From Candidatus Parvarchaeota archaeon (GTDB taxonomy: Archaea; Nanobdellota; Nanobdellia; Parvarchaeales; Parvarchaeaceae), in the NCBI GenBank assembly GCA_023378865.1, contig JAMCSP010000019.1, positions 1 to 52,763 on the forward strand: DNA of 52,763 nt, given 5' to 3'. This document shows, piece after piece, positions 240 through 45,501 of the stretch. Made by a program: the position numbers and the translations under genes. The notes under the pieces were generated by a model. It did not search any database and was not told where the DNA came from. It saw only the letters and a list, made by a program, of their open reading frames with translations. Every line of letters starts with the position of its first letter. The stretch's first letter is position 1.

Positions 240-755
240 TTAACTAAAATAAGAAGTACTCTTATAATCTGATAATCTAATACTGGTCGCCGCTACAATT
301 TTTTTAAACGACTCTTTATCCAGATTCTTTATAAGGTCATAATTCAGGTATACCTTGTAATCGCCAGAATGCAACGGTTTTATATATGCGGCAGGCATAA
401 CCTTCCCTTTCATTTTTATGCCGAAGTACTCTCTCTCATAATCATTATCCCTTGTTCTGTAGATCCCCGACATATAAAACAAGGGAACACTATCACGCAT
501 AAAACTGCTGTCATAATCTGACGAGCTTCCGCTTTTTATTACATAATCACTTGATTTTCCCGGGAACCTTGAATCCTTCTTTCTCTTCCTTACAAGATCA
601 ATTTTTATATTCTTGAAGTAATCCGATAAATCATTATACGGAAATTTTAATATCTTTTCAGGATCTTCATTTTTCAAATCCTCAAGAATTAAATCCAAAC
701 TTTTTCTTAAGTTATCCAGCCCTTTAAACTCTTTATTTGTATTTTTTCTAAACAT
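240..755 (-). CDS. Uncharacterised 171-residue soluble protein
   Basis: ATG at 755 and a stop at 240 give 171 residues. The N-terminal 60 residues are helical, charged and lysine/aspartate-rich. The rest is rich in Tyr, Ser and Asp (for example SGSSSDYDSSF near residues 76-86) and looks beta-rich. There is no signal peptide, membrane helix or cysteine pair. I do not recognise a family. It lies on the same strand as the preceding partial gene with a 74-bp AT-rich gap, so it may have its own promoter. It is probably a lineage-restricted protein. Confidence 0.5.
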   Translation of the reverse strand: MFRKNTNKEFKGLDNLRKSLDLILEDLKNEDPEKILKFPYNDLSDYFKNIKIDLVRKRKKDSRFPGKSSDYVIKSGSSSDYDSSFMRDSVPLFYMSGIYRTRDNDYEREYFGIKMKGKVMPAAYIKPLHSGDYKVYLNYDLIKNLDKESFKKIVAATSIRLSDYKSTSYFS

Positions 756-16737: not shown

Positions 16738-17496
16738 ATGAAAATACTATCCTGGAATGTAAATGGACTAAGAAGCGTTGCAAGAAAAAACGAAATACAA
16801 AAGATAATAAATTCGCAGATTTATGATGTAATACTCCTGCAGGAAACTAAAATTGAAGAAGCAAGCAGTATAATAAAAACAGACCAATACCTGCAGTACA
16901 TTATGCCTTCCAGCAGTAAAAAGGGGTACAGCGGAGTAATGACAATGTGCAAGAGCAAGCCCCTTAACGTTATCTACGGAATCGGAAATGAAAGATACGA
17001 TAAAGAAGGGAGGGTTATAACTGTAGAATTTAGCAACTACTTTGTAATAAACAGCTATTTTCCTAATTCCAGGAGGGATCTGAGCAGGCTAGATTATAAA
17101 ATAGGATTCAACGAAGAGATGCTTGAATTTATGGAAAAACTGAGAAATAAAAAACCGATAGTAATAGGCGGGGATTTCAATGTTGCACACACTGAAATAG
17201 ATATAGCTAGGCCTAAACAAAACGAAGGAAATGCTGGTTTTACTATGCAAGAGAGGAAATTCATTGATAAACTTGTAGGAAAAGGATACATTGATACATT
17301 CAGACTATTCAACAAAGAAGGAGGAAATTATTCATGGTGGACTTATTTATACAAGAGCGCAAGGAAAAATAATATTGGATGGAGGATAGACTATTTCTTT
17401 GTATCCGATGAATTGAAAAATAAGGTAAAAGCAGCAGGTATACTTGAAAAGCAGGAAGGATCAGATCATGCACCAGTATTTGTAGAAATCAATTAA
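16738..17496 (+). CDS. xth: Exonuclease III / AP endonuclease
   Basis: Metal-dependent AP endonuclease of base-excision repair. All family signatures are present: WNVNGLR with Asn7, LQETK with Glu36, GGDFNVAH with Asp146 and Asn148, the WRIDYFF motif with Asp218, and GSDHAP with Asp243/His244. Length of 252 residues is typical. It diverges from the giant gene across a 70-bp AT-rich gap that must carry both promoters, and its last 4 bp overlap the convergent KaiC-like gene. Together with nth and the PolX gene in this window it could supply a short base-excision repair path. Confidence 0.95.
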   Translation: MKILSWNVNGLRSVARKNEIQKIINSQIYDVILLQETKIEEASSIIKTDQYLQYIMPSSSKKGYSGVMTMCKSKPLNVIYGIGNERYDKEGRVITVEFSNYFVINSYFPNSRRDLSRLDYKIGFNEEMLEFMEKLRNKKPIVIGGDFNVAHTEIDIARPKQNEGNAGFTMQERKFIDKLVGKGYIDTFRLFNKEGGNYSWWTYLYKSARKNNIGWRIDYFFVSDELKNKVKAAGILEKQEGSDHAPVFVEIN

Positions 17497-36939: not shown

Positions 36940-37956
36940 TTAATCTGCAGAAATATGGGGTGCTTTTCTTTCCCCCAGCGCTTTTTCTATTTCATTTAAT
37001 TCCTTTATTCCGATTTTTTTAGGGAGGTCTATAGCAATGTCTATTATTAGATTGCCTCTCTGCCCATTCTGGCCATAAAGTCCTTTTCCCTTTAGTATCA
37101 GAGGGCCCGTTTCGCCTGCACTTACTGTGATTCTTTCGCTTCCCCAAGGCGTTGGCAAGTCAAGTTCTATACCGTTAAGAAGATCCCTTAAATCCAGGTA
37201 TAACCTTGTTCTCAGATCATTTCCAGCTACACTATAAGTATCGCTTTTTCTTATGTGGAAAAACACATATAAATCTCCATTTTCTCCGTTAACAGAGGGT
37301 TCCCCTTTGCCTTTTATTATTGTATAATCTCCTTCTTTTACTCCTCTCCTTATTGGAACGGAAAGCGTTTCCTCCTTTACTACAAAACCGGTGCCATTGC
37401 AGTTATCGCATTTCTTTTTAACTATAAAGCCAGTTCCGCCGCATCTATCACACGTAGTAGTGAATATGACATTCGATCCAAATTGATGTATAGTCCTGCG
37501 TATCTTTCCGCTGCCGTGGCATTTCGGACATTTTTCTCTTTCTTTTGCGCCCGAACCAGAACAAACAGGACAAATTACTCTATGCTTTATATTAAAAGTT
37601 TTTATAGCTGGATTGAACACTTCTTCCAAGGTTATGTCTAAATCGTACCTTAAATCTTCTCCTTTTGACGAAAAGCCGAAATTCCTGAATATATCTTCAA
37701 ATCCATGAAAATTAAATATGTCACTGAAGTCATTAAAATCAAAGCCTTGCTCACTGCCTTCCTGCTGTGATGAACTGCCGCCTTTGTTCATCAATATCCT
37801 GTACGCTTCATTTATCTCCTTGAACTTTTCCTCAGCATTTTTATCGCCTGGATTTAAATCCGGATGATATTTCTTAGCCAGTGTCTTAAAAGCCTTTTTA
37901 ATCTCTTCTTCCGATGCATTGGGACTTACACCTAACACACGATAAGGATCATCCAT
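36940..37956 (-). CDS. dnaJ: Chaperone DnaJ (Hsp40)
   Basis: Co-chaperone that delivers clients to DnaK and stimulates its ATPase. The J domain has the essential HPD in [11 protein letters not shown]. The Gly/Phe region is replaced by a Ser/Gln/Phe-rich stretch and is short. Four zinc-finger repeats are complete ([32 protein letters not shown]). The C-terminal client-binding domains follow ([15 protein letters not shown]-like end). 338 residues is slightly short for type I DnaJ, mainly from the reduced linker and C-terminus. The leader between dnaK and dnaJ is a copy of dnaK coding sequence (see the 28-bp repeat). Confidence 0.95.
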
Positions 37957-37982
37957 ATTATCCCTTGCAAGTGGTCTCTCTC
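37955..37982 (-). repeat. 28-bp exact repeat in the dnaK-dnaJ spacer (copy of 38553-38580)
   Basis: 28 bases starting at the first two bases of the dnaJ ATG and running back through the spacer are identical to dnaK codons at 38553-38580. The repeat fills 26 of the 31 bases between the two genes and supplies AAGGGAT, the putative ribosome-binding sequence, 5 bases before the dnaJ ATG. Confidence 0.93.
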
Positions 37983-37987
37983 AATCT

Positions 37988-39841
37988 TTAACTTCCGCTG
38001 TTTTCTTCCCCATTTTGCGGATTGTCGTTGTTTCCGTCATTTTCCTGCGTATTCTGCTGAGCATCGTTCTGTTGAGTCTGGCCCTGCTGGCTATAAATCT
38101 TTGAACTTAGTTTATTTATAATTGCTGTCAACTTATCCTTGTCTTCATTTACCTGCTCAATTGTAATATCCTCTTTTGCCGTGTCTTCCTTTATCTTCTT
38201 TATTATGTCATTTGCTTCGTTCTTCTCCTCTTCAGTGATCTTATCCTTGAAATCATTTAGTGTCTTTTCAAGAGAATAAGACAAAGCAGAAAGGTTATTC
38301 TTGGCCTCGATTAATTCCTTTATTTTCTTGTCTTTTTCCTCATTTTCCTTTGCGGCCTGCATCATCTTTTCTATTTCCTCCTTCGAAAGCTTGTGCGGAG
38401 CAGATATTGTTATCTTCTGCGTTTTTCCTGTAGCTTTATCCTTTGCAGAAACGCTTAGTATTCCGTTAGCGTCTATGTCAAAAGTTACCTCTATTTGAGG
38501 TACTCCCCTGGGTGCAGGAGGTATACCCTCAAGATTAAAGCTGCCAAGACTTATATTATCCCTTGCAAGTGGTCTCTCTCCCTGAAGAACATTTATAGTA
38601 ACGCTTGTCTGATAATCATCGGCTGTTGAAAAAACTTTACTTACTTTTATTGGTATTGTGCTGTTTCTTTCAATTATAGGCGTTGAAACGCCTCCCAGCG
38701 TTTCTATGCTAAGTGTCAAAGGCGTTACATCCAAAAGCACTATGTCCTTAATCTCTCCGGCCAAAACTGCACCCTGGATAGCAGCTCCCAATGCTACTGC
38801 TTCCATTGGATCCACTCCTCTTTCAAGCTTTTCTCCGAAAATATCGGTAAGGAATTTCTGCACTATCGGCATCCTTGTAGGCCCGCCTACAAGTATTATC
38901 TTCGAGACTTTATCCTTGTCAATATTTGCGTCCTTAAGAACATTTTCTATCGGCTGTCTTGACCTCTCTATTATAGGCCTTACAAGATTTTCCAGAGTAG
39001 CTCTGGATATTTTGATGTCTAGATTTTTAGGAGAGTTATTAACGACAGTTATATAAGGAAGATTTATCTCTGTTTCAAGAACTGTTGAAAGCTCTATTTT
39101 CGCTTTCTCTGCCGCGTCTCTTATTCTTTGCATTGCTACTTTGTCCTTGCTTATATCAAAATTCTCTTTTGTTTTGAAGTCTTTTACTATGTAATCTACG
39201 AGAGCATTGTCCATGTCTACCCCTCCGAGTTCTACATCTCCGGAAGTAGCCAAAACCTCGAACGTACCGGAAGATATTTCCATTAAGGTTACATCAAGTG
39301 TACCTCCGCCAAGATCGTAAACCAAAACCTTGATATCCGCGGATTTATCCAGACCGTAGGCCATAGCGGCCGCAGTCGGCTCATTTATTATTCTCACTAC
39401 ATCCAAACCGGCTATGCTTCCCGCATCTTTTGTTGCCTGCCTTTGATTATCGTTGAAATAGGCAGGAACCGTTATTACTGCCTTTTTAACCTCTGTTCCA
39501 AGAAATGCCTCTGCGTCTCTTTTTATTTTCTGCAGTATAAAAGCGGAGATCTGCTGCGGAGTATACTCCTTGCCATTTATGTTGTATTTATAATCGCTCC
39601 CCATCTTTCTCTTTGCTGCGAATATTGTATTCTGTGGATTTGAAATGGCCTGTCTTCTTGCAGGTTCTCCGACTAAAATCTGATTGTCTTTTGTAAACGC
39701 AACCACTGAAGGAAACATTTTACCGGCTATTGTTGCTCCCTCTGCACTCGGTATTATGGTAGGTTTTCCAGCCGTTACAACGGCTGCCTGCGAGTTTGAT
39801 GTTCCCAAGTCTATTCCTATTATCTTTTCTTTTTCTGTCAT
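37988..39841 (-). CDS. dnaK: Chaperone DnaK (Hsp70)
   Basis: 617-residue Hsp70. The ATPase domain has [15 protein letters not shown] (phosphate 1; the usual GTTNS is GTSNS), [13 protein letters not shown] (phosphate 2) and [13 protein letters not shown] (adenosine). The linker is [12 protein letters not shown]. The substrate domain follows with [10 protein letters not shown], then a helical lid and a Gln/Asn-rich low-complexity tail. GrpE and DnaJ lie on either side in the same operon; the start overlaps the grpE stop by 4 bp. DnaK is considered to have entered archaea by transfer from bacteria, and the intact grpE-dnaK-dnaJ order here is compatible with that. Confidence 0.97.
38553..38580 (-). 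repeat. 28-bp exact repeat, dnaK-internal copy
   Basis: This copy encodes [10 protein letters not shown]-like residues of the conserved DnaK segment [10 protein letters not shown], so it is the native source. The other copy (37955-37982) lies 598 bp away in the leader of dnaJ. Confidence 0.93.
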
Positions 39842-40290
39842 ACGCTGATTTTAACTTTCGGATACCTTATTATTTTTCCGTTAAGTTTATAACCTTTCTG
39901 CACCTCCTCGATTATCTTTCCTTTTTCTTCTTTACTTTCTTCAGTCGCAACGGCTTCGGCTATATCAGATGAAAAATCCATGCCTAAGACCTCCATCTGT
40001 TCTAAGCCATAATGCGATAATACTGAAATAAGAGCTTTGTAAAGCGCCTGCACTTTTTCGTCCTTATCCTGTTTCAATACGCTCTCGAAATCATCCAATA
40101 CTTTAAGCAAATCTATTATAAGCCGTTCATTTGAATACTTTATGTATTCAACCAACTCCTTTTCCTTTGATTTTTTATAATTGTCAACCTCTGCAAGCAG
40201 ATACATATACTTCGACTTGTAATCTTCCTCGTTTTGTTCTTCCTGCTTTTCATCATTTATATCCTGTGCAGCATTTGTATTTTCTTCCAT
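39838..40290 (-). CDS. grpE: GrpE, nucleotide exchange factor of DnaK
   Basis: 150 residues. An acidic, disordered N-terminus (to about 22) leads to the long helix ([22 protein letters not shown]), then the four-helix part and a C-terminal beta wing ([20 protein letters not shown]). These are family hallmarks. It precedes dnaK with a 4-bp overlap and follows the SecB-like gene by 43 bp. Confidence 0.93.
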
Positions 40291-43461: not shown

Positions 43462-45501
43462 ATGAGTCTTGAAAATTTATTTAATGATGAGCTAGAAACC
43501 GCTGATATAGACCTGCTTGGTAGGTGCATAAGATACACTTTTAAGAATATGACTGGAAAAATTTCACAATATGCCAATTTGAAATTAAGAGATATTGTAA
43601 GCGACTTAAGAATTATCGCAGAGAGTACCAAAGACAAAGATGCAGTTATAGAAGCAGCAAAGACGATATGGAGGTATAATGAAAATGTATCTATTGCAAG
43701 ATATATAACCAATGTATTAAGAAACATTGCAGAAAGTACCAAAGACAAGAATAAGATTATCAACGCTGCCAGGATAATGTCTTTGGATGAAATAGTGAAT
43801 ACTGCAGGAAAAGCTGGAGTTAATTACTTTTACTTAACGCAAATTGCAGCATACACTGAAGATAAAGATGCAGTTATAGAAGCAGCAAAGACGATAGGAA
43901 AGTATGATGGAGATGCTACATGGAATATAGCCAGTATGCTAGGGGTTATTGCAAATAATACCAAAGACAAGAATAAGATTATCAACGCTGCCAGGATAAT
44001 GTCTTTGGATGAAATAGTGAATACTGCAGGAAAAGCTGGAGTTAATTACTTTTACTTAACGCAAATTGCAGCATACACTGAAGATAAAGATGCAGTTATA
44101 GAAGCAGCAAAGACGATAGGAAAGTATGATGGAGATGCTATAGGAAGTATTGTTGCACGGGATATAGCCGGCGAATTAGGAATCATTGCAGAGAAAACGA
44201 AAGACAAAGATGCAGTTATAGAAGCAGCAAAGACGATAGGTAAATATAATGAAAATTTATATATTGCACAAAATATAACCGGAGTATTAAGAAGTATTGC
44301 AGAGAATACGAAAAATAAACTTACCGTAATGACTGCCTGCAGAGTCATAAACTTGGCTGGTTGGGACATATCTGACATGCTTAAAGCCGAAGATTTCAAT
44401 ACTATAAGAAAAAGAAAGCTTGATGAATTGATAAACGACAAGGAAAGCATTGATTCAGTAGTTGCTTACCTAAAATCCGGCCTAAAACTACCTGTCCCAA
44501 CAAAGGAAAACATAAAAAACTATAAGGATGTAGCTTCGGAGTATGTTTCTAAGGAATATGGAATAAATAAGCATTTAAATATAAATCAGATCCTTATGCT
44601 GTTCTCTGTAGATGAGTATAACAGGAAAGAATTAGTTGAGTTGATTAATAGGTCCGATGAAACCGGACTTAAGACCTATAGCGTATCAGCTGAAGGAACA
44701 AAAAGATTGGAGATTGATAGGAATAAACTTCCTTACCTTTCCGTTATATCTATAACTAGATCTAAGGATAAAAACATAGACAAGGAGGCTTACAAATTGA
44801 TATCTAAGATTGTGGGTGAAAAGGCTGTTGAGAAGGCAAGAAATGAATTTAATTCGCATTATAAAAACAAAATAAAGGAGATAGCCTCTTATTTAAATAA
44901 AGGGAATACAGACAACGCCATAGAATTGCTTAAAACCATGAAAAATGAATCAATAGATGATGTTTTGGGCTGCATAAACTACAGTGACAGAGGGTTTACT
45001 GTGGGCAAGGTAGTTCTCAGAGCCGTAGAGAGCAACAATCCTCTGGATTATGACAATAGAGTGCAGATTGCATGTGTATACCTTCCAAGAAATTTTGAAG
45101 ACGGTATATACAATTACTGCAAAGATTATAAATCTGAAGACAGAGAAAAGGGCTTCATACTTGTAAGATATGACATTGGAGGAAAGGCTCTAGGAAGTGC
45201 CATATGCTACATGGAAGATAGTACTTTCCTTGTCGATTCGGTGGAGGGACACCGGACGTTCAGGAAGCCACAGGTATTCAAAGCGGTATATCAGGATCTA
45301 ATAGCTAGGGCTGAGGAGAAAGGCGCTAAAATAGCGATTTTCAGCAATAGTGGCACAAACGAGACTCCTAGGAAATTCATCGATTTTCTTCGAGATATGG
45401 GCCTGAAGCAAGTAAGCATAAAAATGAAACTTAACACTAACAGCTACCTAGAAGCCAATAAAAACAATGTAAGCGGATATATTGTACGTTTTAAGTCATA
45501 A
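43462..45501 (+). CDS. Large helical-repeat protein with separate C-terminal domain
   Basis: 679 residues. Residues about 35-290 are built of helical units of about 35-40 residues with the recurring phrase TKDKDAVIEAAKTIGKY or TKDKNKIINAARIMS, similar in style to HEAT/ARM or TPR-like solenoids. Two consecutive 74-residue blocks are identical over 60 residues at protein and DNA level. The middle (about 300-530) is helical and charged. The C-terminal part (about 560-679) looks like an alpha/beta domain (GFILVRYDIGGKALGSAIC, FLVDSVEG, AVYQDLIARAEEKGAKIAIF) with some likeness to GNAT acyltransferases, not enough to assign. A TATATATA box lies about 30 bp before ATG 43462. The gene follows two tRNA genes. 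Confidence 0.75.
   Translation: MSLENLFNDELETADIDLLGRCIRYTFKNMTGKISQYANLKLRDIVSDLRIIAESTKDKDAVIEAAKTIWRYNENVSIARYITNVLRNIAESTKDKNKIINAARIMSLDEIVNTAGKAGVNYFYLTQIAAYTEDKDAVIEAAKTIGKYDGDATWNIASMLGVIANNTKDKNKIINAARIMSLDEIVNTAGKAGVNYFYLTQIAAYTEDKDAVIEAAKTIGKYDGDAIGSIVARDIAGELGIIAEKTKDKDAVIEAAKTIGKYNENLYIAQNITGVLRSIAENTKNKLTVMTACRVINLAGWDISDMLKAEDFNTIRKRKLDELINDKESIDSVVAYLKSGLKLPVPTKENIKNYKDVASEYVSKEYGINKHLNINQILMLFSVDEYNRKELVELINRSDETGLKTYSVSAEGTKRLEIDRNKLPYLSVISITRSKDKNIDKEAYKLISKIVGEKAVEKARNEFNSHYKNKIKEIASYLNKGNTDNAIELLKTMKNESIDDVLGCINYSDRGFTVGKVVLRAVESNNPLDYDNRVQIACVYLPRNFEDGIYNYCKDYKSEDREKGFILVRYDIGGKALGSAICYMEDSTFLVDSVEGHRTFRKPQVFKAVYQDLIARAEEKGAKIAIFSNSGTNETPRKFIDFLRDMGLKQVSIKMKLNTNSYLEANKNNVSGYIVRFKS
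43737..43918 (+). repeat. 182-bp perfect direct repeat (copy 1; copy 2 at 43959-44140)
   Basis: These 182 bases recur without mismatch at 43959-44140, an in-frame offset of 222 bp (74 codons). Absence of any synonymous difference indicates very recent duplication or active homogenisation. Confidence 0.95.

Follow-up and report, generated by a model that had tools for sequence, protein, structure and literature searches.

The 28 nt that lead into dnaJ on this archaeal contig are an exact copy of a coding segment of dnaK, and the copy is probably a sequencing or assembly chimera; failing that, it would be a copying mutation of known type and recent date. The preferred reading, to which a probability of about 0.57 is assigned from the sequence patterns described below, is that of a local error in which a chimeric read end was merged over the true dnaK-dnaJ spacer. 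The stretch analysed, here termed the window, is the 52,763-nt contig C19 of the draft MAG G000 (807,505 bases in 35 contigs). Because the named relatives of its DnaK are Candidatus Parvarchaeota MAGs, the archaeon is a member of the ARMAN-4/5 group of small archaea. The DnaK proteins of genomes G002, G026 and G018 are 95-96% identical to that of the window. Spacers were compared in nine same-genus genomes, and wider scans used rebuilt sequence, 807,375 bases for G000 and 738,061 for the sister MAG G002, whose alignments with G000 show 87% identity, i.e., a 13% difference.

The coordinates of all features are in Table 1. grpE is situated upstream of dnaK and overlaps its start by 4 nt, and the J domain, the CXXCXGXG region and the C-terminal domains of dnaJ are all intact as judged by Pfam profiles. 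The dnaK stop codon (37988-37990) and the dnaJ ATG (37954-37956) enclose a window spacer with the sequence AGATTGAGAGAGACCACTTGCAAGGGATAAT. Positions 37955-37982 and 38553-38580 are identical 28-mers, 598 bp apart (minus strand GAGAGAGACCACTTGCAAGGGATAATAT); the first of these occupies 26 of the 31 spacer nt together with the AT of the dnaJ ATG. The initial annotation had described such a copy, ending in the ATG, and a check of coordinates and sequence bears it out. The annotation had also judged a chance match very unlikely; a search of the window for the 28-mer pattern with up to 3 mismatches found these two places only, and 100 dinucleotide shuffles of the window gave a mean of 0.00 matches, which rules out a chance origin. 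Membership of a repeat family was likewise rejected, as the window holds the 28-mer only twice and no further near copy emerged when the rebuilt, near-complete MAG was scanned for exact repeats. Other near direct repeats of similar length in that scan are mostly in repeated genes.

Table 1. Positions of the genes, spacer elements, patches and chimeric contig tips (positions without a contig prefix are those of the window).
Feature	Position	Strand	Basis or remark
grpE	39838..40290	-	NCBIfam GrpE models, scores under their cut-offs
dnaK	37988..39841	-	NCBIfam NF001413 and TIGR02350, above cut-off
dnaJ	36940..37956	-	Pfam PF00226, PF00684 and PF01556, above cut-off
dnaK-dnaJ spacer, 31 nt	37957..37987	-	gene ends
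Donor segment inside dnaK, codes for ERPLARDN	38553..38580	-	28/28 identity to the spacer copy
Replaced 21 nt, GAGAGAGACCACTTGCAAGGG	37962..37982	-	ungapped G002 alignment and further relatives
7-nt junction match ATAATAT, including AT of dnaJ ATG	37955..37961	-	in the ancestral spacer and in dnaK
G000 patch, 18 nt plus 5-nt anchor CAATG (23 nt exact)	C10:17103-17125, replaced 17108-17125		inverted copy of 17236-17258, 133 bp away
G000 patch, about 12 nt plus 3-nt anchor TGC (15 nt)	C10:343-357, replaced 345-357		inverted copy of 398-412, 53 bp away
G002 patch, 27 nt, in a coding gene	C48:1264-1290		inverted copy of 1367-1393, 103 bp away
Chimeric contig tips, G000	C20 left, C22 left, C23 right, C28 left		inverted copies of nearby sequence
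Chimeric contig tips, G002	C32 left, C38 right, C43 right		inverted copies of nearby sequence

The copy is absent from the spacer in all nine same-genus genomes compared. In G002 and G018 the spacer is an identical 31-nt sequence, AGATTATTAGCAGTCTTTTCTTTAGAATAAT, terminating in ATAATATG; its length is also 31 nt in G004 and G009, and 32 to 34 nt in G026 and G007. The motifs AGATTATTAG and CTTTAGA are common to the spacers of G026, G007, G004, G009 and G013. It should be noted that the ancestral spacer (AGATTATTAG...CTTTAGAATA) is non-coding, yet conserved between species. Within the replaced segment (37962-37982), 11 of the 16 columns that are invariant in six relatives are altered in the window. 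By comparison with these relatives the copy is derived, not ancestral. Since the spacers of G002 and G018 are equally 31 nt long and the alignment of the window with G002 is ungapped (0 gaps over 327 columns), 21 nt of conserved spacer are, on this alignment, overwritten in register and none are added. Of the 28 nt of the copy, 21 are thus new, and the other 7 are a match that the old spacer already contained. That a microduplication or insertion created or lengthened the spacer, as the initial annotation had proposed, is accordingly extremely improbable. A tandem or dispersed microduplication would indeed leave a second exact copy of the dnaK segment nearby, as is seen here, but sequence was replaced with no net gain, and the spacer of relatives is different and conserved. 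The same annotation had named misassembly as the main alternative, and this has gained ground, as the relatives carry an unrelated spacer despite high overall identity.

The donor segment is kept as ERPLA(R/K)DN in the DnaK of close relatives, in agreement with the conservation assumed at the outset. Its nucleotide sequence matches that of the window at 25 of 28 positions in G002, the closest compared relative, and at 25 of 28 or fewer in close relatives, while the spacer copy and the window's own dnaK allele are identical at all 28. Because the donor is conserved and differs at 3 of 28 positions in G002, and the copy agrees with the window's allele throughout, the copy is, on these identities, templated by the window's own recent dnaK allele; the earlier proposal of dnaK as template therefore holds. 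The replacement is non-reciprocal, the dnaK donor being intact. One end of the patch shows the 7-nt microhomology between dnaK and the old spacer (ATAATAT on the minus, ATATTAT on the plus strand), and the opposite end is abrupt, without microhomology. The codon phase of the copy relative to dnaJ is that of the same segment in dnaK. Owing to this shared phase ahead of the ATG, any recombination between the two copies would remove 598 bp and leave dnaK and dnaJ fused in frame.

A selected dnaJ leader, in which the dnaK copy supplies a ribosome-binding site or co-regulation of dnaK and dnaJ, was considered and is very improbable. The sequence AAGGGAT, gained only in the window among the relatives compared, is predicted to pair with the archaeal anti-SD at -4.0 to -4.7 kcal/mol, and the equivalent place in relatives reaches only -0.1 to -0.5 kcal/mol. 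These values refer to the canonical archaeal anti-SD sequence, because a search of G000 yielded no 16S 3′ end. However, relatives share the dnaK-dnaJ gene order without AAGGGAT, and the SD signal is weak genome-wide, with 21% of long ORFs at -5 kcal/mol or lower vs 14% of shuffles. Of the ribosome-binding-like character first attributed to AAGGGAT, the pairing itself thus stands, while the near-zero values of relatives and the faint genomic signal speak against a function. Because the old spacer is conserved, loss is indicated rather than gain: if the change is real, the comparison suggests that something was lost with the old spacer.

For similar events elsewhere, the alignments at 87% identity were scanned for clustered changes that agree with sequence on either strand in the surrounding 1 to 5 kb, with genes that have internal repeats set apart. 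Besides the window patch, two further convincing patches were found in G000, both in contig C10 and both inverted. The larger one lies in a small membrane protein gene, where it takes the place of an equally long conserved stretch and removes an invariant Ser-Pro. The smaller one, just upstream of a ribosomal protein S8e-like gene, replaces the conserved AAGGAGGTT and changes an invariant Arg-Arg to Leu-Leu; it is the weaker case, with only 15 nt in all. Both are length-neutral and derived in G000 relative to eight or nine relatives. The patch found in G002 is length-neutral relative to G007, the sole comparison for that patch. All coding patches keep their open reading frame. No patch was found in the 215 kb of G026 scanned, which is too little for a rate.

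Several candidates were rejected. The 24-nt direct pair at C20:9467/11737 of G002 is a dispersed repeat, and G000 C28:1281-1312/1457-1479 appears to be a partial tandem duplication of a gene start, with a period of 176, near a contig end. The partner of G000 C22:478 is the contig tip itself, so it is probably a tail, and a 15-nt match at C35:3057 is AT-rich and close to the null. A 22-nt inverted pair was also observed inside a coding gene of G002 (C39:3415-3436/3504-3525), with no relative to polarise it. Other repeats are of a different kind. A gene at 43630-44240 of the window has near-exact internal repeats with units of about 120-230 nt, and the exact repeat copies in G000 are not those in G002, a pattern that resembles homogenisation in each genome separately. 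Exact tandem repeats of 943 and 834 nt, with periods of 816 and 807, are present at G000 C10:50550-52308, at the contig end, and C2:2494-4134.

A real mutation in cells, by a short templated replacement of the kind seen in SPDIR or template switching, is possible, but it is the less favoured explanation of the window patch. In the proposed route, a dnaK piece, provided as single-stranded DNA at the fork or by a template switch of the nascent strand, would be joined via the 7-nt microhomology and replace the 21 nt. Short-patch double illegitimate recombination (SPDIR) was reportedly described by Harms et al. 2016 in Acinetobacter baylyi. In SPDIR, a short genomic segment is exchanged non-reciprocally for ectopic intragenomic DNA, with microhomology at a junction. 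It has been described in bacteria, and we know of no case from archaea. The window patch is SPDIR-like in that 21 nt are replaced by ectopic DNA with the donor unchanged, and in that the donor is intragenomic, the organism's own dnaK. It differs from SPDIR in that microhomology is found at one junction and not at the other, and in that it is known here from sequence alone. The name SPDIR appears in PMC7192050, and Harms et al. 2016 stands as reference 24 in the reference list of PMC8116780. Template-switch mutations are frequent elsewhere, with 4017 unique events among great apes (PMC7954356), and the four-point model of that study likewise describes a locally templated cluster of changes that resembles many point mutations. 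However, the model covers reverse-complement copies, whereas the window patch is direct; the two C10 patches, being inverted, fit its orientation.

An origin in cells is also consistent with the exact local template, with the donor being the organism's own allele, with the non-reciprocal exchange, with the microhomology at one junction, with the restriction of the derived state to the window's lineage and with comparable patches in a second MAG. In addition, a search for MutS (PF00488) gave no match in G000, G002 or G026, and the control genomes matched, which would fit replacement in cells. G000 does encode RadA and a DHH-family protein. Together, the MutS result, RadA and the DHH protein neither prove nor exclude in vivo replacement.

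Against a mutation in cells are the abrupt second junction and several properties of the patches as a group. Every patch found is perfect. In a mismatch-tolerant search of G000 and G002, at their 13% difference, no imperfect non-adjacent templated patches above the null were found outside repeated genes. Later point changes would be expected in many patches, because patches would form throughout the separation of G000 and G002. The absence of aged patches could also arise if patches formed in vivo were harmful and soon lost. All patches overwrite genus-invariant positions: such columns are altered in G000 at 24 of 34 positions inside its three patches vs 21 of 1404 outside, so that the three patches seem to show no selective filter. 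All are exactly length-neutral, even the non-coding one in the window. Thus the window patch has what a library or assembly chimera should display, being perfect, absent from relatives and apparently unfiltered by selection.

The structure of the assemblies was also considered. In both MAGs the overlaps between contig ends measure 126-127 nt, the mark of a de Bruijn assembly whose final k was about 127. At this k, both patch junctions lie inside one k-mer. An assembly tangle at the 28-nt repeat is unlikely, as the repeat is far shorter than k. At the very tips of several contigs in both MAGs there are inverted copies of 14-28 nt, with sources 49-480 bp away; where the branch point could be located, the anchors measure about 5-9 nt. 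Such inverted tips are what chimeric read ends leave behind. Chimeric artefact reads are a known product of library preparation (PMC10908179, PDSM or fold-back model), and Illumina contigs are known to contain local errors and chimeras (PMC11208441). PDSM or fold-back chimeras resemble the window patch in that a short exact copy of nearby sequence follows a microhomology, and the contig tips of G000 and G002 show the same architecture.

A chimeric read end is favoured because of the equal-length patches, the lack of ageing and of a selective filter, and the chimeric contig tips. On this explanation, a read would run from dnaJ into the spacer up to ATATTAT (plus strand), then jump 598 bp ahead onto the identical 7 nt in dnaK, as a deletion-type chimera, copy 21 nt of dnaK and end. 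During assembly, this 21-nt end would then be merged over the true spacer, in register with it. We infer that the chimera formed in reads rather than in cells. A perfect copy with one anchored and one abrupt end, of equal length and placed with disregard of conservation, would follow from such a chimeric read end.

Some observations weigh against the chimera. The window patch is direct, whereas fold-back or PDSM copies, and all the clear chimeric tips, are inverted; explaining the direct orientation would take either a jump during PCR or a rare deletion molecule. The window patch is also internal, with an in-register return, so that, compared with a PDSM read chimera, an extra merging step would be required. 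At a final k of 127 the wrong sequence should be outvoted unless coverage was low. Finally, the reading frame remains open in every coding patch; equal length permits this without making it necessary.

If the window patch is an error, as favoured here, it represents a class that consensus checks miss: length-neutral, frame-preserving and built from the organism's own sequence, hence easily mistaken for fast evolution or a regulatory gain. In public MAGs, such places could be flagged by comparing genomes with their relatives and looking for local templated patches that are perfect. If instead the patches are real, the window would provide an example of templated patch replacement from an archaeon, and such replacement would generate multi-base changes of a sort misread by substitution models. 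On that tentative and somewhat doubtful view, a host-dependent archaeon of the Parvarchaeota group, with no MutS found, would have segments of 12-21 nt replaced, in register and without change of length, by direct or inverted copies from nearby. The rate would be measurable, with about three recent events in 0.8 Mb, and the rewriting of the dnaK-dnaJ spacer would be among these.
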